Counted from the first letter of the stretch, positions 10,625-25,043 are shown. The stretch is DNA of 35,965 nt from Candidatus Fermentibacterota bacterium (GCA_016928395.1 JAFGKV010000297.1:1-35965); one strand, 5' to 3'. The notes: generated by a model not told the origin, from the letters alone. Numbers and translations: made by a program.

Positions 10625-12085
10625 GTGCCCCACGTACATCTCCTCGGTATAGGAGGAAGCGGGATGAGCGGCCTGGCAGGGCTCTTCGTTCAGGCGGGAT
10701 GGGAGGTATCCGGCTGTGACTCGGCGCACGTCCGACCTCCCGCCGCCGACACCCTGGCCGGGTTAGGAATCACCCCTTCAGTCGGTTACTCGGCGGATCA
10801 CCTCCGCCCGGCGCCGGATCTGGTGATCGTGGGCAATGTGATTCGGGAGTCGAACCCCGAAGATCACGCGGCCCGGGCCTTGGGACTTCCCCGTACACAC
10901 ATGGCAGCGGCTCTGAGAGACTTCTTCATCCGAGAGCGGACCAGCATCGTGGTTGCCGGCACCCATGGCAAGACTACATCGACTTCCATGCTGGCATTCC
11001 TGCTGTGTGACTGCGGCATGAATCCAGGGTTTTTCATCGGCGGCGTGGCACGAGACCTCGGCACCAGCTTCCGCAGGGGGCAAGAACCGTATTTCGTGAC
11101 CGAGGGCGATGAATACGATTGCGCGTGGTTTGACAAGAGCCCCAAGTTTCTCCACTACGGGCCCCGCTATCTCCTCATAACCAACGTGGAGTTCGACCAT
11201 GCGGATATCTACGCCGACCTTGACGCCGTTCGCGCGGCCTTTCGTCGGCTCGTCCAGTCGATGCCCTCGGACGGTCGACTCGTGTACTGCGCAGAATCAC
11301 CCGCCCTGGTCGACGTAGCCCGTGACGCGCCGTGTGAAGCACACTCGTACTCGGTGGAACCCTCTGTCCCGGCCACATGGATCGCCCGCGGAATACGACG
11401 CGAGGGAACGCGTACAAGGTTTAATCTTTCCTTCGATGGCATACCCATGGGCGAATTCTCGCTCCGGCTCGCCGGCCGCCACAATGTCCAGAACGCTACC
11501 GGGGTAATCGCCCTATGGCACGCCATGGGGCTCCCTCTCGAAGACCTCGCCAGACGTTTGCCTCGGTTCCGAGGAGCGGCCCGGCGTATGCAGGTGCTCA
11601 CCTGTGGCGATCTGGTGCTGGTGGACGATTTCGCCCATCACCCCACAGAGGTGCGGGCCACCCTCGCTGCGGCCAGGCAGTGGTGGCCTTCGCGTAGGCT
11701 GTGGGCGGTATTCGAGCCGAAGACTCAAACCAGTAGACGAGCAGTGCTTCAGGATGATCTGGCCAGCGCCCTGGCCTTGTCTGACGAGGTTGTGATCATC
11801 CGGCCCCATGACCTTGATACCATACCCCTACGCGAGCGCATCGATGCAGGCAGACTGGCCGATGCAATCAGGGCTCAGGGCATCCAGGTTCGGATTGCAT
11901 CCACCCACGATCAGTGCGCATCCATTGTTCAGCAGGGAGTGGGTCGTGAGACCCTAGTTGTGCTGATGAGCGCGGGGAGTCTCGCCGATGTTGCCCACAC
12001 ACTAACTTCCTATGCCACGGCCCAGGGCCTGGCGACCACCCTGGAGCCTGATGCACCCCTTTGTGCGGACCAGGATCACCGCTAA
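10625..12085 (+). CDS. mpl: UDP-MurNAc:L-Ala-gamma-D-Glu-mDAP ligase (Mpl), MurC-like
   Basis: A 486-residue Mur ligase that attaches the recycled tripeptide to UDP-N-acetylmuramate in peptidoglycan recycling. The N-terminal nucleotide-sugar domain begins HVHLLGIGGSGMSGLAGL. The P-loop is GTHGKTT at 112-118. Two features favour Mpl over MurC: NVIRESNPEDHA near residue 71 and EGDEYDCAWFDKSPKFLHY near 160-178. The last domain shows DDFAHHPTEVRATL and ends in VVLMSAGSL. The start is GTG, 5 bases after the previous stop, with GGAG 10 bases upstream. Because no other mur gene is in view, MurC function cannot be excluded from sequence alone, but the motifs argue for Mpl. Confidence 0.88.
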   Translation: MPHVHLLGIGGSGMSGLAGLFVQAGWEVSGCDSAHVRPPAADTLAGLGITPSVGYSADHLRPAPDLVIVGNVIRESNPEDHAARALGLPRTHMAAALRDFFIRERTSIVVAGTHGKTTSTSMLAFLLCDCGMNPGFFIGGVARDLGTSFRRGQEPYFVTEGDEYDCAWFDKSPKFLHYGPRYLLITNVEFDHADIYADLDAVRAAFRRLVQSMPSDGRLVYCAESPALVDVARDAPCEAHSYSVEPSVPATWIARGIRREGTRTRFNLSFDGIPMGEFSLRLAGRHNVQNATGVIALWHAMGLPLEDLARRLPRFRGAARRMQVLTCGDLVLVDDFAHHPTEVRATLAAARQWWPSRRLWAVFEPKTQTSRRAVLQDDLASALALSDEVVIIRPHDLDTIPLRERIDAGRLADAIRAQGIQVRIASTHDQCASIVQQGVGRETLVVLMSAGSLADVAHTLTSYATAQGLATTLEPDAPLCADQDHR

Positions 12086-13919
12086 CCTCGGGTGCCTGGC
12101 GTTCACGCTGGCGTTGGTGTTCGCCGTCGAGATGGTCCTGCGGTCAGCCGGCATTCCTCGGAGGGGAGCCCTTTTCCTGACAGAAGGGAACGAGACACGG
12201 CTATCGCCCGGTGCCGCCGCCCGCTACTTCGCCGCTCGATCGCCTCTGGTACCCGAGACCCGCTCTGAACCGTTCCAAATGCCAAAACCGGCGCGGCTTG
12301 TTCGCATCATGTGTCTTGGCGGATCGACCATGGCAGGCTACCCTTTCACCTACAACGGCACCCTGCCGTCGCTCCTGGCTGATGGGTTGCAGCACATCTT
12401 TCCTGACACCGCCATTGAGGTGCTCAACCTTGCCGTCTCCGCGGTCGGGTCATACACCGTCCTCGATCTGTGCCGTCACGCTTTAGCCTATGAGCCCGAT
12501 CTCATGGTGGTCTATACAGGCCACAACGAGTTCTACGGGGCGCTGGGCGCGGCAAGCACCCAGCGCCTTTCAACTCCCCGGTGGCTCACCCTCCTGCATC
12601 TGCGAATGCAGGATGTCGCGTTGTACCGTCTGTGGTGGGATACCATCGGGAAAGTCCGCCGGCCCAGGCAAGCCATGGACTCAGACGTGACTCTGATGGC
12701 TAGGATGGTCGGGCAACCGTGTGTCCCGTCGGACAGCCCCAGTTACCGTAAGGCAGTAGCGGTGTTCTCTGCAAATGTTGCAGACCTCTGCCGACTGTGC
12801 GCAAAGCGCGGCGTGCCGGTGGTGGTATGTGAGCTGGTGTCGAACCTGCGGGATCAACCTCCGTTTCCCGTGTGTCCGCTGGACCAGGCCCCGGGATGGA
12901 ACAACAGTCCGGATTCCAGTGCCGCAACGCTGTTTGCCCAGGCCCGTTCAGCCGAACAATCCACGGATCCGGTGAGTGCCTGTGCCCTGTACATCCGAGC
13001 GAGAGACGCCGACTGGTGTCGCTTCCGAGCCCCAGGGGAGTTCAATGATTCGCTACGGGCTATTGTCCCAAGGAAGGGCGGCGTACTTGTGGCTTTGAAA
13101 TCGCGATTCTTGGCCGCGTCGCCCTTTCCGGCACCGGGATATGACCTCTTTCTTGACCACCTTCATCCCAATCTGGATGGCTACGTCTTGGTGGCGGGCA
13201 GTATCATCCACACCATGCGGGAACAGGGCATTCTGGATCCCCCTCTGTCATGGGACGGGGCGCGGAAACTGACCCCTGGTGTGCACCGTCAGGGCGCACT
13301 GGTCACTGAGCTTGAGCACGCCATTGCCATGGACAAGGTACGTCGACTCATGAGTCACTGGCCGTTTTCTCCTGATCAGCCCTTGCCGGTGTACGTGTTC
13401 GACGACACTATCGCCACACTGGCCCGACGCTACCACGATGAGCGTTTGGCCTGGAGCGACGTTCACTTCATGGCGGCAGACTACTTGGTGCGACAGGCCC
13501 GATACGGCGAGGCATTGCGGGAAACGAAGGCGGTGTTGAAGCAGGCCGCGGGTTTCTGGCCGGCGTGGATGAAGGCAGGCGACGTGTACCTGGCCCAGCG
13601 ACGGCCACTGGATGCCGCTACGGCCTATCAGGTTGCGTCACGACTGGATGGGGGGCGAGGTCACAGCCTGGCAAAACTGGGCAGTGCCTTGCTGGCCGGG
13701 GGGAACACAGAGGAGGCCGTTTCAGTGCTGGAGGCTGCCAGGCGCCCGGAGGCCGGCCTCTCCGAGCTGGACTGGGCCCGAGCCAGCTACCTTCTGGGGA
13801 AGGCCTATGCACATCTCGGTCTTCTTGATGACGCAATGAGCATCGCGGCAGAACTGTCACGGCATCGCGAGGGGGGCAGGTTTGCCGACAAACTCAGGAT
13901 GGAGATGCCTGGTGGATAG
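12051..13919 (+). CDS. Membrane-anchored SGNH/GDSL hydrolase with C-terminal TPR repeats
   Basis: A 622-residue protein. The ATG at 12051 has GGAG 4 bases upstream and overlaps the end of mpl by 35 bases. A signal anchor spans about residues 11-30. The SGNH hydrolase blocks are in order: CLGGSTMAG with nucleophile Ser92, NLAVSAVGSYT with Gly133, YTGHNEF with Asn159, and LDHLHPN with Asp369 and His372. The C-terminal part, from about residue 470, is helical with TPR-like pairs such as ALRETKAVLKQAAGFWPAW and AVSVLEAARR. SGNH enzymes remove or add acyl groups on glycans or lipids. With mpl next to it, a periplasmic esterase acting on cell-wall or surface glycan is a reasonable guess. Confidence 0.8.
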   Translation: MHPFVRTRITANLGCLAFTLALVFAVEMVLRSAGIPRRGALFLTEGNETRLSPGAAARYFAARSPLVPETRSEPFQMPKPARLVRIMCLGGSTMAGYPFTYNGTLPSLLADGLQHIFPDTAIEVLNLAVSAVGSYTVLDLCRHALAYEPDLMVVYTGHNEFYGALGAASTQRLSTPRWLTLLHLRMQDVALYRLWWDTIGKVRRPRQAMDSDVTLMARMVGQPCVPSDSPSYRKAVAVFSANVADLCRLCAKRGVPVVVCELVSNLRDQPPFPVCPLDQAPGWNNSPDSSAATLFAQARSAEQSTDPVSACALYIRARDADWCRFRAPGEFNDSLRAIVPRKGGVLVALKSRFLAASPFPAPGYDLFLDHLHPNLDGYVLVAGSIIHTMREQGILDPPLSWDGARKLTPGVHRQGALVTELEHAIAMDKVRRLMSHWPFSPDQPLPVYVFDDTIATLARRYHDERLAWSDVHFMAADYLVRQARYGEALRETKAVLKQAAGFWPAWMKAGDVYLAQRRPLDAATAYQVASRLDGGRGHSLAKLGSALLAGGNTEEAVSVLEAARRPEAGLSELDWARASYLLGKAYAHLGLLDDAMSIAAELSRHREGGRFADKLRMEMPGG

Positions 13920-14226: not shown

Positions 14227-14601
14227 ATGAACGAAATTGCCTGCCGTTCCCTGGGGACTCCTCGCGCCGTCTTGATCGAGGCACATGGACGAATTCAAGG
14301 GCTTGTTTCCCAGGAGCTTCGAGATGTAGTATGGCATCAGGGATACCATGGGACGCAGTGGATGGTCTTCGATCTTCGCCACGCCACGGCATTGGATTCG
14401 ATGGCGCTGGGCGCGCTTCTTCTTGCCCGGTCTCTGTGCGCGAGACACCAGGGACAGGCGGTGCTCCTTGGGCTTTCCCCGCCGCTCATCACCTTGCTTG
14501 AGGCTTTGGGCCTGCGGGATCTCTTCATGCTGGCCGAGGACATGCGTCACGGATTGGACGCGCTGCATCGCCTCGGCGTGTCGGCGGAAGCGGATGCATG
14601 A
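14227..14601 (+). CDS. STAS-domain protein (anti-sigma factor antagonist type)
   Basis: A protein of about 124 residues made of a single STAS domain: strands AVLIEAHGRI and WMVFDLRHATALDS, then MALGALLLARSLCARHQG, AVLLGL and the helix LITLLEALGLRDLF. The serine in the LDSMALG loop is where the regulatory phosphorylation site of SpoIIAA/RsbV-type proteins lies. Such proteins release a sigma factor by binding an anti-sigma kinase when unphosphorylated. No kinase or sigma factor gene is in the window. An upstream in-frame GTG at 14218 is possible, but GGAG at 14212 sits only 2 bases from it, so I prefer ATG 14227. Confidence 0.8.
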   Translation: MNEIACRSLGTPRAVLIEAHGRIQGLVSQELRDVVWHQGYHGTQWMVFDLRHATALDSMALGALLLARSLCARHQGQAVLLGLSPPLITLLEALGLRDLFMLAEDMRHGLDALHRLGVSAEADA

Positions 14602-14776
14602 GGTGTTCACGCTGCATCGCTTCAGCGGGGTGAGTGCTGCGAATCCAAGGCGATGGCGCAGCCCTGCGGTTTCCGCCCTGCGGAGGCGGCAAGGAAGACC
14701 ACACGGGTTACGGCGTGCTCACGCTCAAATCCTGTGGCTTCTTGCCCTGGTCGCAGGATGCCGAGGGGAGAGTCAG

Positions 14777-15421
14777 ATGCACCATATCGACTGGCTGAGT
14801 GCCAGACAACGCATGGTAGAGAGGCAGATCGCCGCCCGAGGGGTACGCGATCCACGGGTTCTTGAGGCGATGATGACCGTTGAACGGCATCGGTTTGTGC
14901 CCGAGGATGTCGTCGAGTTCGCTTACTCCGATCAGCCCCTACCCATCGGGCACGGCCAGACCATCAGCCAGCCATACATCGTCGCCCTGATGACCGAACT
15001 TCTCAACCCTCAGCCTGGCGATACGGTGTTGGAAATCGGCACGGGCTCTGGCTACCAGGCCGCCGTGCTGGCGGGTTTGGTTTCACAGGTGTACACCATC
15101 GAGATTGTTGAGCCCCTGGCCGAAGAGTCACACACACGGCTTCTGGATCTCGGGTTCGACAATGTCACCGTCCGGTGCGGTGACGGCTACGCAGGATGGC
15201 CGGAGCATGCTCCATTCCGGCGGATCATCGTGACTGCCGCTCCTCCCTCGGTTCCTAAGCCGCTGCTGGAGCAGCTGACAGTGGGTGGACGCCTGGTGGT
15301 GCCGGTGGGTGATGCATTCCAGGAACTCCAGGTCATCGTACGAGAGGAGTCCGGATACCGGGTGCAGCGCAGCATTGCCGTGCGATTCGTCCCCATGGTG
15401 GGTGAGGCGCAGCGCCACTAG
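14777..15421 (+). CDS. pcm: Protein-L-isoaspartate O-methyltransferase
   Basis: A 214-residue repair enzyme that methylates isoaspartyl residues from damaged Asp/Asn using S-adenosylmethionine. The N-terminal helix [20 protein letters not shown], the substrate-site [18 protein letters not shown] (55-72), SAM motif [17 protein letters not shown] (84-99), and the C-terminal [13 protein letters not shown] are all typical. The ATG at 14777 has GGGGAG 6 bases upstream. The frame stays open upstream to ATG 14594, overlapping the STAS stop, and encodes LWLLALVAG before a cysteine, a lipoprotein-like signal. Some bacterial Pcm proteins do carry such leaders, so an exported form from an earlier start is possible. 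Confidence 0.92.
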
Positions 15422-15563: not shown

Positions 15564-16295
15564 ATGAAACGACCATTCATGGCGGTGGGGCTGGCCATTG
15601 CGGTGATCTCCTGCGGGCACGGAGCACGGTTTCGCCCCGGTCCGTGGGTTTCCCCTCGGCCGGACAGCTTAGCGACGGCGGACACTCTGCTGGCCTCGGG
15701 ACGCGTGCTGGCCACAGAGGGAACCATCAGATTCCGTGCCCGGTGGGCAGCGGCGGCGTGCAAGGAGAACCTTCGGGTGCAGGTGTTCGGCACGGACGGC
15801 AGTTTCATCGCCGACATTTCCTTCAGCGCAGACAGCCTCAGCGCCTTCCTGCCCGGCCTTATGGAATGCCACCAAGGCGCGATCGTCGACGTGCCGTTGG
15901 ATTCACTGCTGGGTATCACCGTTCCGTGGAAAACCGGGTTGACAGTCTTGTGGGCCACGCTCTGGCCCGGCCGAATCACCGCACCTTGGGTGTCTGGCAG
16001 CCTGGGGCATCGACAGGGGTGGTATGCTCCCAGTCACGGCGCGTTCGTCCAGATCCACCCGCGTTGGCGTCTGCCGCAGTATCTGTCGTTCACCGACGGA
16101 AGTTCTTGCCTGAGCATGGAAGTGCGCTCGTGGAAATCGACCACCGCGGGGATGCTGCCATCTGCGCTCAGGTTCTCGTGGCCGGCGCGGGATGTTGAGA
16201 TGTGGATAGATCTATCGATTCGAGAGACGGAGGCCATCGAAAGTGCGGCGTTGCAGTCCATCTGTCCGCCGGGCGCGCATGCGCACGCTTGGTAA
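15564..16295 (+). CDS. Lipoprotein, possibly LolB/DUF4292-like
   Basis: A 243-residue lipoprotein. The first residues MKRPFMAVGLAIAVISC form a short lipoprotein signal with the lipidated cysteine at 17. The mature part shows a beta-rich half-barrel pattern: LASGRVLATEGTIRFRARW, LRVQVFGTDGSFIADISFS, then a LDSLLGI helix, and later strands ALRFSWPARDVEMWIDLSI. This order resembles lipoprotein-binding LolB or DUF4292 folds that hold acyl chains; the similarity is structural judgement, not a strong motif. The 3' end overlaps the start of the protease-propeller-barrel gene, so the two are very likely made together. A GGGAG lies a rather long 13 bases before the ATG. Confidence 0.65.
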   Translation: MKRPFMAVGLAIAVISCGHGARFRPGPWVSPRPDSLATADTLLASGRVLATEGTIRFRARWAAAACKENLRVQVFGTDGSFIADISFSADSLSAFLPGLMECHQGAIVDVPLDSLLGITVPWKTGLTVLWATLWPGRITAPWVSGSLGHRQGWYAPSHGAFVQIHPRWRLPQYLSFTDGSSCLSMEVRSWKSTTAGMLPSALRFSWPARDVEMWIDLSIRETEAIESAALQSICPPGAHAHAW

Positions 16296-19023
16296 GGCGC
16301 TCGGTCTCCTCCTATGCGCGGGCGCTGCATCCGCTGACTACGGATTCGGCAAGAACAAGATCACCTACGGCCACCACGGCTGGTGGGAGATCGATGTAGG
16401 AAGCTACCGCATCCACTACCCCCAGGGGTTCGAGAAAATCGGCCAGTTCTCCGCCAGGTATGTCGATCAGCTGGCACCCGCGGTGGAGGATCTCATTGGC
16501 ATCCAAAGCAATCGAACTGTCCCCATCGTGGTCTATGGCTCTCACATGGCGTTCTTGGAGACAAGGATCCTTCCCCAGATCCTACCTGAAGGTGTCGGCG
16601 GCTTCACGGAGTTCATCCAGGGCCGGGTGGTCGTTCCCAATACCGGTGCCAGCGGTGAACTACGTCACGTCTTGATTCACGAATTGACCCACGCATTGAT
16701 GCTGGAGAAGCTTGCCCATGTCTCCAGACTCCACCGGCGCATGAGGCTCCCGTCGGTGCCCCTGTGGTTCACCGAGGGCTTGGCCGAATACGCCAGCACG
16801 GCCTGGACCGCGCAGGAAGAGATGATACTGGGGGACGCATTCCTTGACGGGAAGGTCCCCCCGTTGAGAGACATGTGGCAACTCAACGGGACGTACCTCT
16901 TGTACTGCGCAGGACACTCGCTGCTTACGTTCATGAGCGAGACATACGGCGAAGGATGGATTCGCCAGGTCCTCCAAACCCTGGGCTCAGCCGCCTCCTT
17001 CGATGAGGCCCTGGAACGAGCCACAGGCCTGAGTCAGGACGCCCTCGGCACTCGGTGGCGTCAGTGGCTGGGCGTGCACTTCGCCTACCTCCTGAGCCGT
17101 GATGAGGCCGCTGTTCGCTACGCCCGCGCCTTGCCCTCTACCGATGCGTTCTTCAGCCCCGTCGTGTGGGGCCAGACCTCCGACACCGTGGCGGTGCTCT
17201 CCTATGGCGACGGGTATGCGTCGGTGTTCACGTCGTGCACCGTTACACCCGAACGGCGACCTCGGCGCATCGTCAAGGCCGGCGGCAGGGAGGGTGTCGA
17301 GTCGTTGCACCTGTTCCGCTCGCGCTTGGGATCCAGCGGCACGGGCAACCTCGCGTTCATCGCCAAATCCGACGACCGTGACGCCTTGTACGTCGCCGAC
17401 GGACGAAGCGGCAGAATCCTGAGCAAGTGGAGACTTCCGGGCATTCGCTCCATGTCAAGCCCTTCCTTTTCACCGTCGGAATCGCTCCTGGCATTCTCTG
17501 GCATGGACACGCTGGGCATGGTTGACCTCTTCCTGCTCGACACCGCCACGGGCGCCGTGTCTCGGCTCACCCACGACGTGTTCGATGACGGTTCACCCGC
17601 ATTCAGTCCCGACGGCGCTCACCTGGTTTTCCACTCCGATAGGATGCCCGGTGGTCCGGCCCGATGCTCCAATCTCTACCTGCTGGAGTTGGCCAGCGGT
17701 GGCGTCTCTCAACTGACATGCGGACCGTATCAGGATCGGGATCCCGTGTGGTCGCCAGTGAGCGGCGACATCGCCTTCGTGTCGGATCGAGGCACGGGGA
17801 TCGGATTGTGGGCCACGGACGGACAACGCCTGCGACCGCTGGTGCACGTACAAGGTGGCGCCTTTGACCCGGCGTGGAGCCGTGACGGCAGTCGGCTCTA
17901 CTTCGCGACGTACCGGCATGGAACCTACCACGTGCATGTGGCGCGAGCGTCCGAGTTCGATGCACCCTGGACCGCGCAGGCCAGTGCCGACTGCGGAGGA
18001 TTCTGGGAGGAACCCGGGGACTCCGTGCTTCCGGTCGCCCGCCGGTATTCTCCCCGGTACAACCTCGACATCGCGAGCGGCATGCTGACCTATGACCCGG
18101 CCCAGACCGGAGGCGGGGGTGCCAATGTAGTGCTCAGCGATGTATTGGGCGAGAAGCGGGTCTATCTTCATGTCAGCAATGGCGCCGAGACGACTGACGA
18201 CTTTCTCTCCAGCTTCAATCTGGCCGTGGCCTATGCCAATCTGAGACCGCGGCTTGCCTACTCCATCGGCGTATTCAGGCTGTCCGTCACGGATCAGACA
18301 TCGATTGACAATCTCGGTTGGGAACGGCGACACAATGGCGCGGCCCTATTCCTGAGCTACCCCTTGAGTCGCTACCACCGCATGGAAGCGGGCGGCAGCG
18401 TACGGATGGTGGAGGATCTCGTCGATGGAACCCAACAAACGGAAGTGTTCGGCGAGGTGGGCTATGCTCGGGACACGGCGGTGTGGGGCTTTGAGGGCCC
18501 GTGGGATGGCACGAGACTCGGCGCCAAGCTGGAAGCCGCGGTGGACGCGGGTTCAGGAGCCTTCATCCGATGTGAGTTCTTCGCGGATGGGAGGTGGTAC
18601 CTTCGCCTCTCTCGAATGTGTACTCTAGCGAACCGTCTGCAGTGGTGGCAGAGCAGCGGCGCGGATCCCCGGCGCTTCGGCCTGGGAGGGGCTTTCAGCC
18701 TCCGCGGATGGGCCGACCACCGGATGCTGGGCAGGAAACGTCTTCTGGCCAACATCGAGCTTCGATTCCCCCTGCTCATGGGTATTCGGTTGCTGACGCC
18801 CGCGGGGGAGATGGCGCTCGGTCCTCTCAGAGGAGCGCTCTTCTTTGACGCAGGCAGAGCGTGGGACGACGACTTCCCGGGGCTGGTGGGGAGCGTGGGT
18901 GGCGGACTCCGGCTGAACGTCGGCGGATATCTTGTGCTACGCCTTGACAGGGCTGCGCGAACAGACTTCCACGCCATGCCGGGAAAGACCAGAACCCAGT
19001 TCTTCTTCGGCTGGAGCTACTGA
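16243..19023 (+). CDS. HExxH protease / TolB-like propeller / outer-membrane barrel fusion
   Basis: A 926-residue exported protein with three modules. After a signal peptide (through about residue 31), residues 50-300 form a gluzincin-like peptidase: IHELTHALMLE places the zinc histidines at 146 and 150 and the catalytic Glu147, and FTEGLAEYAS supplies the third ligand Glu178. Residues about 300-620 are TolB/WD40-like propeller blades, for example SPSFSPSESLLAFSG, SPAFSPDGAHLVFHSDR and DPAWSRDGSRLYFATYRHG. Residues about 640-926 are an amphipathic beta-barrel of bacterial surface antigen (Omp85-like) type with GLGGAFSLRGWADHRMLGRK, GALFFDAGRAWDD and a terminal aromatic FFFGWSY. I take GTG 16243 because GGAGG lies 9 bases upstream; ATG 16279 is the alternative. 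It overlaps the lipoprotein gene. Confidence 0.85.
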   Translation: MRRCSPSVRRARMRTLGKALGLLLCAGAASADYGFGKNKITYGHHGWWEIDVGSYRIHYPQGFEKIGQFSARYVDQLAPAVEDLIGIQSNRTVPIVVYGSHMAFLETRILPQILPEGVGGFTEFIQGRVVVPNTGASGELRHVLIHELTHALMLEKLAHVSRLHRRMRLPSVPLWFTEGLAEYASTAWTAQEEMILGDAFLDGKVPPLRDMWQLNGTYLLYCAGHSLLTFMSETYGEGWIRQVLQTLGSAASFDEALERATGLSQDALGTRWRQWLGVHFAYLLSRDEAAVRYARALPSTDAFFSPVVWGQTSDTVAVLSYGDGYASVFTSCTVTPERRPRRIVKAGGREGVESLHLFRSRLGSSGTGNLAFIAKSDDRDALYVADGRSGRILSKWRLPGIRSMSSPSFSPSESLLAFSGMDTLGMVDLFLLDTATGAVSRLTHDVFDDGSPAFSPDGAHLVFHSDRMPGGPARCSNLYLLELASGGVSQLTCGPYQDRDPVWSPVSGDIAFVSDRGTGIGLWATDGQRLRPLVHVQGGAFDPAWSRDGSRLYFATYRHGTYHVHVARASEFDAPWTAQASADCGGFWEEPGDSVLPVARRYSPRYNLDIASGMLTYDPAQTGGGGANVVLSDVLGEKRVYLHVSNGAETTDDFLSSFNLAVAYANLRPRLAYSIGVFRLSVTDQTSIDNLGWERRHNGAALFLSYPLSRYHRMEAGGSVRMVEDLVDGTQQTEVFGEVGYARDTAVWGFEGPWDGTRLGAKLEAAVDAGSGAFIRCEFFADGRWYLRLSRMCTLANRLQWWQSSGADPRRFGLGGAFSLRGWADHRMLGRKRLLANIELRFPLLMGIRLLTPAGEMALGPLRGALFFDAGRAWDDDFPGLVGSVGGGLRLNVGGYLVLRLDRAARTDFHAMPGKTRTQFFFGWSY

Positions 19024-19035
19024 GAAACGCCGGCT

Positions 19036-21060
19036 GTGGGCCCGCTGGATACGCCCGTGAGACTGCTCCGCGGTGTCGGACCCTCAACGGAGAAGCTGCT
19101 TCAGCGCCTTGGCCTGCATAGCATCCGTGATCTCCTGCTTCATCTGCCCATTCGACACATCGATCGCTCCCACATCGTACCCATTTCGACCGTGCGTCCC
19201 GGCCAGGAATGCGTCCTGTCCGGCACGCTGGGGCCCCCCACTGCGATGTATATCCGCGGACGCCGGCGGGGAGCTTCCGCGTCGCTGACTGACGAGTCGG
19301 GATCAATTCGCTGCGTGTGGTTCACGGCGGCCCCATGGGTCTCCCGCTGGTCCGACATCGGAAGGGTGATTGTCTCCGGGCGCGCGTCCCGTCACAGCCC
19401 GCTGTCTCTGCTTCATCCGCAGATCGAAGAGCTGGGAGATGAACGGGATCCCTACGTGCCAGTATACGGCGTGACGGAAGGCCTGAGCCAGCGGCGGATA
19501 CGTTCAATCATCCGAACCGCACTTGATGGCCTTGCGGCCTCGGTGCCGAGCCTGGTGCCGACCGACTACGACGATGGAACCAAACTCCCGTCATTGACCA
19601 CCGCCCTTCGTGCCGCTCACTACCCATCGTCGCCGGAGGAGGGTCGAAGGAGCGCCGAACGAGTTCGCCTGGAAGCCCTCATACCACTTCAGGTAGTGGT
19701 GCTACGGCGCAAAGCGCTCCTCAATGAACGTTCCGCTCCCGCAATGACCCTGCCTGCCGACTCACTGGCTGCCTTTCTGCGGAACCTGCCCTTCACCCTC
19801 ACCAGGTCACAAGCGGATGCACTGGTTCAGATACGAAAGGATCTGGCTTCATCCCGCCCCATGCATCGGCTGCTCCAGGGTGACGTGGGCTCGGGCAAGA
19901 CCGTAGTTGCGGTGGGTGCCTGCATAGTGGCACTGACCCACGGCTACCAAGCGGCCTTGATGGCCCCCACCGAAGTGCTGGCCGACCAGCACGCCCGCGT
20001 GATCACGCCGTGGATCCGGGGCATAGGCCACCAAATCGGCGTGCTCACCGGTGCATCGTCGGCAAAGCAGCGTCGAGAGCTACACGAATCCGTGGGCACG
20101 GGTGACCCCCTCCTCATGATCGGCACCCATGCACTGCTCCAGGAATCCGTTCACTTCCGCCGACTTGGTGTGGTAATCGTTGATGAACAGCACCGGTTCG
20201 GCATCGCGCAGCGGGCCTGCCTGGCCGGCAAGGGCCAATCGCCACACATGCTGGTCATGACAGCAACTCCCATTCCCCGAAGCCTGGCCATGACCGTCTA
20301 CGGTCATCTGGATGTCTCAGTGCTCTCCGACAAGCCTACGGGGCGCAAACCAATACGAACCGCATGGTATGATAGTGCCCGGCGCACCGAGGCACTCAAG
20401 GTGTTTCGCGACCACCTGGATCAGGGAACACAGGGCTTCGTGGTGGCGCCCCTGGTGGAGGAAGCCCCGAACCGAGAGATACGAGGCGCAATCGAGCTTC
20501 ACCGCGAGCTATCCTTTGGCATCCTGAAGGGCGTCCCCACCGGGCTGGTCCACGGAAGAATGCCCGCCGCCGAGAAGGACCGCATCATCGAAGCCTTCCG
20601 CGCCGGGGAGTTTCAGGTTCTTGTCTGCACCACCGTGGTCGAAGTCGGCCTTGACGCTCCGGGGGCGGGTGTCCTCTTGGTAGACGGCGCAGAGCGCTTC
20701 GGGCTCTCGCAGCTCCACCAGTTGCGGGGACGAATCGGCCGGGGAGGGCAGGAGGGGCTGTGCCTGCTGCTTACCGGTCAGGAGATTACGGTGGAGGCGG
20801 AGCGCCGCATCAACGCCATGCTCGAAACCGCGGATGGATTTTGCCTGGCGGAACTGGATTTGGCGCAGCGCGGCCCCGGCGCTCTTCTGGGTCCGGCGCA
20901 GCACGGCATGATCGCCGGAGCTCTTACCGCCGATCCGCGGCTCGTCGCCATGGCCCGAGCCTGCGCCCTGCGCATTATGGAGCAGGGGGCGCCGCCAGAA
21001 GCCAATATTGAGGCGCTGCTTACGGAGTTTGAGGATGCCTCTGGACTGGGGGCCGGTTGA
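19036..21060 (+). CDS. recG: ATP-dependent DNA helicase RecG
   Basis: A 674-residue helicase that remodels stalled replication forks and branched recombination intermediates. The N-terminal LDTPVRLLRGVGPSTEKLL begins the RecG wedge/OB domain. The helicase core shows Walker A GDVGSGKT (282-289), Walker B DEQH (383-386), TATPIPR, and motif VI inside LSQLHQLRGRIGRGG. Length is normal. The start is GTG, 12 bases after the fusion gene; no strong ribosome site is seen. Its last 41 bases overlap the 3' end of the opposite-strand glycosyltransferase. Confidence 0.96.
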   Translation: MGPLDTPVRLLRGVGPSTEKLLQRLGLHSIRDLLLHLPIRHIDRSHIVPISTVRPGQECVLSGTLGPPTAMYIRGRRRGASASLTDESGSIRCVWFTAAPWVSRWSDIGRVIVSGRASRHSPLSLLHPQIEELGDERDPYVPVYGVTEGLSQRRIRSIIRTALDGLAASVPSLVPTDYDDGTKLPSLTTALRAAHYPSSPEEGRRSAERVRLEALIPLQVVVLRRKALLNERSAPAMTLPADSLAAFLRNLPFTLTRSQADALVQIRKDLASSRPMHRLLQGDVGSGKTVVAVGACIVALTHGYQAALMAPTEVLADQHARVITPWIRGIGHQIGVLTGASSAKQRRELHESVGTGDPLLMIGTHALLQESVHFRRLGVVIVDEQHRFGIAQRACLAGKGQSPHMLVMTATPIPRSLAMTVYGHLDVSVLSDKPTGRKPIRTAWYDSARRTEALKVFRDHLDQGTQGFVVAPLVEEAPNREIRGAIELHRELSFGILKGVPTGLVHGRMPAAEKDRIIEAFRAGEFQVLVCTTVVEVGLDAPGAGVLLVDGAERFGLSQLHQLRGRIGRGGQEGLCLLLTGQEITVEAERRINAMLETADGFCLAELDLAQRGPGALLGPAQHGMIAGALTADPRLVAMARACALRIMEQGAPPEANIEALLTEFEDASGLGAG

Positions 21061-23360: not shown

Positions 23361-25043
23361 ATGCAAACCGCATTCGTCTTCGTCGGTCTTCTCGTTCTGG
23401 CAGCCTCGTCCACAGATCTGGACCACGTTGCCATTCAATACCAAGCGTCCGCTGAGTTCGGTACTCCGCCCGCTGCCGATCGAAACGCACTATGGATCTT
23501 CAATGCGGCTGCGGACAACGGCGATGTGAACTGCCTTCGCCCGGTAGGCGATGTGGATGGAGACGGTCTCGTCGACCTCGTGATGACCGTGTACGACGCG
23601 GGGTATTCCTTCGACGATCTGCTGTGCATCTCGGGCGCGAGCCAGGGTTCACCCACCGTGCTGTGGTCAGTGGATTCCCAGGATGGCCTCTCCGGGGGCG
23701 GTGGCTATGGCCCGGAATGCCTTGCCGCCTCGCCTGATATGAACGGCGACTCTGTTCCGGAGGTGTTGTACGGTACCGCGTGGGGCGGCCGAACCTTCTA
23801 CTCCCGTTCCGGCTCATCGGGCGATTCCCTGTGGTTTCTCGACACCTATGATGTCCCGCCGTCCGGCTGGGTGTATCAGGTCGCTCCTTTCATCGACATC
23901 ACCGGTGACGGAACCCCCGAGGCGTTGGGTGCGGTCGGCAAAGACGCCAACTCGGTCTTCTGCGTCGACGGCGCCTCATCCGGCCCCGCCACGGTCGTGT
24001 GGTCGTTCCAGGCGCCGGATGGCTTCATGAGCGTTGCTGTGCTGGGCGATGTAACCGGCGATGGCGTCCCTGAGGTGGTGGCCGGCAACGGCACAAACTA
24101 CGAGGATGACCGTGTGTTCTGCATCGCCGGGGCTGCATCCTGGCCCGGTTCCCGCCAGATCTGGGCCGTCTCGACCGGAGGCGTGGTGCGCAGCGTTGCC
24201 GCCATGCCGGATCTGAATGGCGACGGCATACCCGAGGCGCTGGCCGGCTCGTCCAACAGCATGGTCCGCTGCCTCTCCGGGGCGGATGGTTCTGCGCTAT
24301 GGACCCGTCATGTCGGGTATTCCGTCATGAAGGTCGCCCTCCTGGAAGATCAGACCGATGACTCGGTGCCGGAAGTGCTAGTGGGCTGGTGGGAAAATGC
24401 GATCCTCTGCCTCGACGGCGCCACAGGCGCGACCCTGTGGTCGACCCCGACGGAAACGACAAACGGCGGTGATGTGTGGACCGTGGCGGCCATCGGCGAT
24501 CTCGACGGTGATTGCCGCCAGGATGTCATCGCAGGATCCTTTGACACAAAGGTCTACGCCGTTCGAGGCGCAGACGGAGGTATTCTGGGCACATTCTCCA
24601 CCGGACGAAGGCTGTACTTCGTCGGCCCCATGCCCGATGTTGACGGTGACGGCCTCGACGAAATCCTCGCCGGTACCCAAGGGCTGTACGGTAGCATCGC
24701 CTCGGGGTACTGCCTTGCCGGGGCCGGATTCGCGCCGCTTCGCATCACCGCCTCGATCCAGGACGGGACGGTGGTCCTGAACTGGTCTCCCCATCCCGCT
24801 GCCGGCGCATACTGGGTGTATGGCGCCTCAGATGTCCCACACTTCGAGCCCGGGCCGGCACCTGAATTCGAGCACCGCCTGGCGGTGTTGCGCCCGAACC
24901 ACCACACATGGGCCACCACCAACGGCGTGCTTGACGTGGAGGAAAATTGGTCGTTTCTGGTAATGGCAGTGACAAGCACTGGAGTCGAGCTGATGCGCTC
25001 GCGCCGGGTGGCGGAGTTCGACTACTCCACTGATATTCCTTGA
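23361..25043 (+). CDS. Exported FG-GAP/VCBS repeat beta-propeller protein
   Basis: A 560-residue exported protein with AAGGAGG 5 bases before its ATG. The signal peptide is FVFVGLLVLAASS. Eight calcium-loop motifs of the D-x-D/N-G-D-x-x-x-D/E kind recur about every 50 residues: DVDGDGLVD (64), DMNGDSVPE (126), DITGDGTPE (179), DVTGDGVPE (230), DLNGDGIPE (284), a weakened DQTDDSVPE (330), DLDGDCRQD (380) and DVDGDGLDE (426). Between them recur CxxGAxG...LWS strands, so each blade mixes FG-GAP and quinoprotein-like features. The C-terminal 100 residues resemble an FnIII domain (GTVVLNWSPHPAAGAYWVYG). No sorting signal or enzyme motif is seen. A surface or secreted binding role is likely; ligand unknown. 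Confidence 0.85.
   Translation: MQTAFVFVGLLVLAASSTDLDHVAIQYQASAEFGTPPAADRNALWIFNAAADNGDVNCLRPVGDVDGDGLVDLVMTVYDAGYSFDDLLCISGASQGSPTVLWSVDSQDGLSGGGGYGPECLAASPDMNGDSVPEVLYGTAWGGRTFYSRSGSSGDSLWFLDTYDVPPSGWVYQVAPFIDITGDGTPEALGAVGKDANSVFCVDGASSGPATVVWSFQAPDGFMSVAVLGDVTGDGVPEVVAGNGTNYEDDRVFCIAGAASWPGSRQIWAVSTGGVVRSVAAMPDLNGDGIPEALAGSSNSMVRCLSGADGSALWTRHVGYSVMKVALLEDQTDDSVPEVLVGWWENAILCLDGATGATLWSTPTETTNGGDVWTVAAIGDLDGDCRQDVIAGSFDTKVYAVRGADGGILGTFSTGRRLYFVGPMPDVDGDGLDEILAGTQGLYGSIASGYCLAGAGFAPLRITASIQDGTVVLNWSPHPAAGAYWVYGASDVPHFEPGPAPEFEHRLAVLRPNHHTWATTNGVLDVEENWSFLVMAVTSTGVELMRSRRVAEFDYSTDIP

Follow-up and report, generated by a model that had tools for sequence, protein, structure and literature searches.

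Several described systems of the bacterial outer membrane can be set beside the locus reported here. The WD40-Omp85 subfamily, defined in 2014 by Heinz and Lithgow (PMC4104836), places a TolB-like propeller N-terminal to an Omp85 barrel and has no POTRA domains. PlpD, a patatin-Omp85 protein (type Vd), carries a patatin lipase and one POTRA domain before its barrel, and its N-terminal enzyme domain, once assumed to be secreted, proved to be periplasmic (PMC11116518). According to that study, neither the WD40-like nor the metalloprotease Omp85 proteins have been characterised well (PMC11116518). BepA is an M48 zinc metallopeptidase, a separate protease-TPR protein that visits the beta-barrel assembly machinery (BAM), where it acts on stalled LptD (PMC8423444). 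BamA itself, made of POTRA domains and a barrel, pairs with the PQQ-type propeller lipoprotein BamB. In this study, we analysed a DNA stretch of 35,965 nucleotides from a Candidatus Fermentibacterota bacterium (GCA_016928395.1, JAFGKV010000297.1:1-35965; hereafter the window). We focused on one of its genes, which encodes a predicted zinc peptidase, a TolB-like propeller and an Omp85 barrel in a single chain (hereafter the fusion), and on the lipoprotein gene that overlaps its start.

The fusion shows all three features of the WD40-Omp85 subfamily. However, the text of the defining paper mentions neither its MA-clan peptidase nor the pairing with a lipoprotein (PMC4104836), and our literature search found no earlier description of a peptidase, a propeller and an Omp85 barrel in one protein. 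It resembles PlpD in having an enzyme N-terminal to the barrel, but the enzyme is a predicted metallopeptidase, a propeller follows it and no POTRA domain is present. With BepA it would share a zinc metallopeptidase whose site of action is presumably periplasmic, at an Omp85 barrel, although its MA-clan domain is a different one and is carried on its own barrel. In comparison with BamA, a peptidase and a TolB propeller occupy the place of the POTRA domains. PF00149 is the calcineurin-like phosphoesterase family and not a protease family. It is the family that defines the "Metallo" (metalloprotease) group in the 2014 paper (PMC4104836).

We propose, as the likeliest reading, that the fusion is an outer-membrane-anchored periplasmic zinc metallopeptidase that works with a lipoprotein partner, somewhat as BepA does at BAM; judged from sequence and analogy, the probability of this reading is about 0.45. 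The N-terminal domains would hang in the periplasm under the barrel, as in other Omp85 proteins, a placement of the enzyme domain that we adopt because of the analogy with PlpD. The TolB-like propeller and the partner lipoprotein may capture or position clients, such as nascent outer-membrane proteins or lipoproteins, and the peptidase may clip stalled or misfolded clients, or mature clients, near the membrane. Such an action would be similar to that of BepA at BAM, with the protease built into the Omp85 barrel.

The peptidase domain was assigned by Pfam to Peptidase_MA_2 (PF13485; residues 82-276, E 2e-12, 47.8 bits against a curated cut-off of 32.4). The first-pass annotation, which had been made from the sequence by eye of a model, correctly recognised a gluzincin-type HExxH peptidase with H146, E147, H150 and E178 as key residues, but it named PF01433 (M1 peptidase) for the profile check, and this family was rejected in favour of PF13485. 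These residue numbers count from a GTG codon, and subtracting 12 gives the numbering from the likelier ATG start. In the AlphaFold2 model of the fusion, built with 77 relatives (pLDDT 86.1, pTM 0.84), H134, E135 and H138 (ATG numbering) lie within helix 125-151 and E166 within helix 162-173; a predicted metalloprotease region is thus present where it had been placed, at 140-180, both as the HExxH helix and as the PF13485 match. The peptidase fold is supported by the sequence profile and by the helix pattern of the model, and the predicted MA-clan (gluzincin-like) identity has both the profile and the HExxH motif with a downstream Glu behind it. No solved metallopeptidase stood among the structure matches listed for the complete model, since the propeller and the barrel fill the list. 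When the profile of the peptidase domain was compared with the PDB, the only match obtained was a weak one to collagenase (E 0.02), aligned over the W-x-x-E-G-x-A-E stretch.

Conservation was assessed in 77 aligned full-length relatives from many phyla, with a mean pairwise identity of 43%. Of the 914 positions, 57 are invariant; the barrel holds 26 of these, the protease region (30-275) 20 and the propeller 5. Those of the protease region include H134, E135, H138, E166, E170 and Y209 (ATG numbering). The HExxH and E-G motifs were also retained in 11 of the 12 distant or paralogous loci examined. Because HExxH and the third Glu are invariant in all 77 sequences at this level of divergence, selection for catalysis is likely to act on the zinc site, and chance cannot explain its conservation. 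Among eight family members, the peptidase, propeller and Omp85 profiles scored above cut-off in 8, 7 and 7, respectively.

The other two modules had also been recognised in the first-pass annotation, and both are borne out. Two PD40 matches (E 7e-13) exceeded the curated cut-off, and residues 277-562 of the model (ATG numbering) match TolB over 241-249 residues at 2.3-2.7 Å. The C-terminal part matches Omp85 (PF01103; residues 684-923, E 3.6e-8, above the curated cut-off), and residues 596-914 of the model (ATG numbering) match BamA barrels at 3.6-3.9 Å (VIA, with Foldseek giving TolB and BamA matches too). Sixteen strands can be counted from residue 595 onward, so that the barrel expected after residue 640 is found, and it ends in the predicted aromatic beta-signal. 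The RG(W/Y) motif is placed between strands 11 and 12, as is the L6 motif VRGF/Y of BamA. Pfam gave no POTRA match in the fusion at E<=10, and in the model the propeller and the barrel are just some 30 residues apart, so that no POTRA lies there. Similarities to TolB, Omp85-family and HExxH-protease models of NCBIfam were all below the equivalog cut-offs, as is expected for a different domain combination.

The architecture is not unique to this genome, as the first-pass annotation had suspected for related phyla. A genome scan returned at least 528 loci, of which the best 80 were kept. Most belong to the Fibrobacteres-Chlorobi-Bacteroidetes (FCB) group, of which Fermentibacteria is a class in the NCBI taxonomy, and their titles include Zixibacteriota, Calditrichota, KSB1, Ignavibacteria/Bacteroidota, Kryptonia, Gemmatimonadota, Latescibacterota, Neomarinimicrobiota, Eisenbacteria and others. 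The nearest relatives among the matches listed are L021 (70% identity, titled Eisenbacteria) and L022 (52%, Fermentibacteria). Full-length relatives with the identical domain order in many phyla exclude a chance open reading frame or mis-joined modules. Also in the window's genome is a further, more distant fusion built in the same way (G000 C199, L118:5170-8079; 31% identity), with no lipoprotein gene adjoining it. Separate POTRA-bearing Omp85 proteins (G000 C299) are also encoded there; the one with four POTRA matches is presumably BamA, and the fusion would therefore be additional to it. A full-length fusion was also seen at L093:6019-8811, on a contig that bears the title SAR202 (Chloroflexota); such an outer-membrane protein is not expected in that lineage, so the bin may be mislabelled.

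Directly downstream of the fusion, and on its strand, 69 of the 75 readable loci carry a gene for a BamB-like lipoprotein, a PQQ-type propeller of about 380-400 residues; none of the 75 has such a gene directly upstream. Stop and start codons overlap (TGATG/TAATG) in 30 of the 69. All 50 aligned members match PQQ_2 (PF13360, described in Pfam as BamB) and the NCBIfam BamB model TIGR03300 at E<=0.001, the one member with a score given reaching 169 bits, below the equivalog cut-off of 285. A lipobox is recognisable in 58 of 63. This widely conserved pairing is apparently undescribed. The first-pass annotation had thought of a self-contained device, which is doubtful because the fusion is recurrently paired with a lipoprotein. 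In the window's lineage, in the window itself as in L021 and L022, recG occupies the slot of the BamB-like gene, and a search of the window's genome with the BamB-like profile gave as best match a frame of 618 residues, which lies on a different contig. Read most simply, these gene orders would mean that a lipoprotein acts together with the fusion and that this partner was changed in the window's lineage. As to further neighbours, judged by eye, a third gene often follows the BamB-like gene (L029, L066, L075, L078, L080), whose product looks like a PEGA-domain exported protein (GxTPL/xPxG). The upstream neighbour of the fusion is conserved within each phylum, again by eye: a SIS-type sugar-phosphate isomerase-like gene in Ignavibacteria and a radical-SAM-like gene (LCPxxC) in Zixibacteria (L029, L036, L043, L047, L049 and others; L053, L060, L071, L088).

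The candidate partner in the window's lineage is a different lipoprotein, encoded upstream. It overlaps the fusion gene, with recG following, in all three genomes of the window's family, among which fusion identity is 52-70%. Its lipobox Cys17 is invariant in the L021 and L022 orthologues. The AlphaFold2 model built from the three sequences (pLDDT 78) supports a LolB/LolA fold, with Porphyromonas gingivalis LolB as a match (Foldseek E 2.5e-9, VIA Z 16.9). The first-pass description as LolB/DUF4292-like therefore holds for the predicted fold but not for the profile: neither Pfam nor NCBIfam gave a match at E<=10, DUF4292 was not assigned, and only the fold and a suggestive hhalign comparison with DUF4292 (probability 76.6 over 190 columns) point there. 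The expected co-occurrence of this lipoprotein with the fusion stood within the family and not elsewhere, where the lipoprotein is the other one; a profile search outside the three genomes found no clear relative, and a general linkage was rejected. LolB proteins have a protruding beta3-beta4 loop whose tip carries a hydrophobic residue that function requires; in E. coli this is Leu68 (PMC11885536). In the three orthologues this turn, with strand limits taken from the predicted model, is polar (GTDGS, TTDGS, ATEGT), and the lipoprotein may for this reason not be a working LolB, although it shares the lipobox and fold. It could well be, at odds somewhat short of even, that the overlap is incidental and that the lipoprotein is simply the LolB of the phylum, placed upstream by chance. 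The predicted fold would agree with this, as would the lack of any DUF4292 match at E<=0.1 in the three genomes together with the presence of LolA, whereas the polar turn and the retention of the overlapping order at such divergence speak against it.

Rival accounts also exist for the fusion itself. Its main role might be in assembly or translocation, which would make it a second machine of the BAM kind: the barrel would insert or export clients, the peptidase would be confined to trimming or maturing the machine's own clients, and the propeller and the BamB-like lipoprotein would stand in for the POTRA domains and BamB. Heinz and Lithgow saw in WD40-Omp85 a likeness to a fusion of BamA with BamB (PMC4104836); the barrel retains Omp85 signatures (the RG motif and the terminal beta-signal) and holds more invariant positions than the other regions, and the BamB-like partner gene is conserved. 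However, the fusion has no POTRA domains, the client-binding parts of BamA and TamA, POTRA-bearing BamA-type proteins are encoded too, and the full conservation of the zinc site argues for central proteolysis. We regard this account as possible but less likely than the proposed one. Other secreted MA-clan proteases exist, and in a type Vd-like surface display the barrel might carry the protease and propeller out of the cell, there to serve in competition or in the digestion of nutrients. PlpD was long read in this way, but direct tests locate its enzyme domain in the periplasm (PMC11116518). Since export would require the threading of a folded propeller some 285 residues long, and the lipoprotein partner gene and the TolB homology indicate the periplasm, display is improbable. 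Least probable is an envelope tethering or remodelling device, in which the peptidase targets peptidoglycan or lipoprotein-peptidoglycan links and the propeller binds a Pal-like protein: the propeller is indeed most like TolB, a Pal partner, but Pfam found no peptidoglycan-binding domain in the fusion, no Pal neighbour was seen, and the same genome has shorter TolB-like propeller proteins (e.g. G000 C259, 475 amino acids).

Several points weigh against the proposed membrane-anchored peptidase with a lipoprotein partner. The topology proposed for the fusion is taken from analogy, and our literature search found no experiment on any member and no reported substrate or proteolytic activity. Six of the 75 loci (L021, L022, L039, L045, L059 and L094) have no adjoining BamB-like gene, although in L094 one lies about 860 nt away. 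The link to the LolB-fold lipoprotein rests on three related genomes, and gene adjacency is not proof of interaction. A more far-reaching proposal, which we hold to be possible but doubtful, is that the fusion makes up, together with the BamB-like lipoprotein, a second BAM-type machine equipped with a protease in many FCB phyla, uniting the assembly and degradation of outer-membrane clients in one chain, and that the window's lineage exchanged the BamB-like partner for the LolB-fold lipoprotein.

Both open reading frames of the gene pair were verified as first annotated, the lipoprotein at 15564-16295 (243 amino acids) and the fusion at 16243-19023 when read from GTG. The 926-residue frame is therefore real, but the GTG is likely to be 12 codons too early, because the codons from ATG 16279 on encode a clean Sec signal peptide; this start gives 914 residues. 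The reported overlap of the two genes remains, at 17 nt from this ATG. Relatives of the fusion have a hydrophobic N-terminal segment followed by an FGxNK motif. The features are listed in Table 1.

Table 1. Features of the lipoprotein-fusion locus (window coordinates)
Feature	Position	Strand	Evidence or remark
Lipoprotein gene, predicted LolA/LolB fold, 243 aa	15564..16295	+	Lipobox VISC, Cys17 codon 15612-15614; orthologues adjoin the fusion in L021 and L022
Fusion gene, likely ATG start, 914 aa	16279..19023	+	Signal peptide begins at ATG; GTG 16243 gives 926 aa
Predicted Sec signal peptide MRTLGKALGLLLCAGAASA, then DYG	16279..16335	+	Sequence reading
Predicted MA-clan (gluzincin-like) zinc peptidase domain	16366..17103	+	PF13485; 8/8 family members match; helical architecture in model
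HELTH (HExxH) putative zinc-binding/catalytic motif, H146/E147/H150 (GTG numbering)	16678..16692	+	Invariant 77/77
Glu E178 (GTG numbering) in PLWFTEGLAE, proposed third zinc ligand	16774..16776	+	Invariant 77/77, kept in paralogues
TolB-like propeller	17107..17964	+	PD40 matches; phmmer to TolB chains in the PDB E ~6e-16; VIA Z 27
Omp85 beta-barrel, 16 strands, no POTRA before	18061..19020	+	PF01103; VIA Z ~22 to BamA barrels
L6 motif R-G-W (R809, ATG numbering), equivalent of Omp85 VRGF/Y	18703..18711	+	Arg 77/77, Gly 71/77
Aromatic C-terminal beta-signal FFFGWSY	19000..19020	+	F 75/77, G 77/77, W 74/77, last residue F/Y 77/77
recG helicase gene, directly downstream of the fusion	19036..21060	+	RecG_wedge and helicase domains by Pfam; gene order shared with L021 and L022

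Upstream of the lipoprotein gene lies a pcm-type protein-L-isoaspartate methyltransferase gene (14594-15421, + strand), whose product seems to carry a lipoprotein signal at its N-terminus (LLALVAGC). One is also present (LCMLGIAC) in the orthologue from Fermentibacteria at L153 (minus strand, from 2143). An exported repair enzyme dependent on S-adenosylmethionine would be odd, because this cofactor is not expected in the periplasm. A gene for a GDSL-lipase domain with TPR repeats is found at 12012-13919 (+ strand), with an orthologue also near pcm in L153. At 23361-25043 (+ strand), a 560-residue FG-GAP repeat protein also shows a weak match to PQQ-type propellers.

Structures of the Bacteroidota BAM appeared in 2025 (PMC12611786). 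How the outer membrane is built and policed outside the Proteobacteria is only now being worked out. A widespread barrel that has an invariant protease site and is co-encoded with a BamB-like lipoprotein offers a defined candidate that can be tested for a part in outer-membrane quality control, in about ten phyla that have been little studied, and the apparent exchange of partners may serve as a natural experiment on the role of the lipoprotein.

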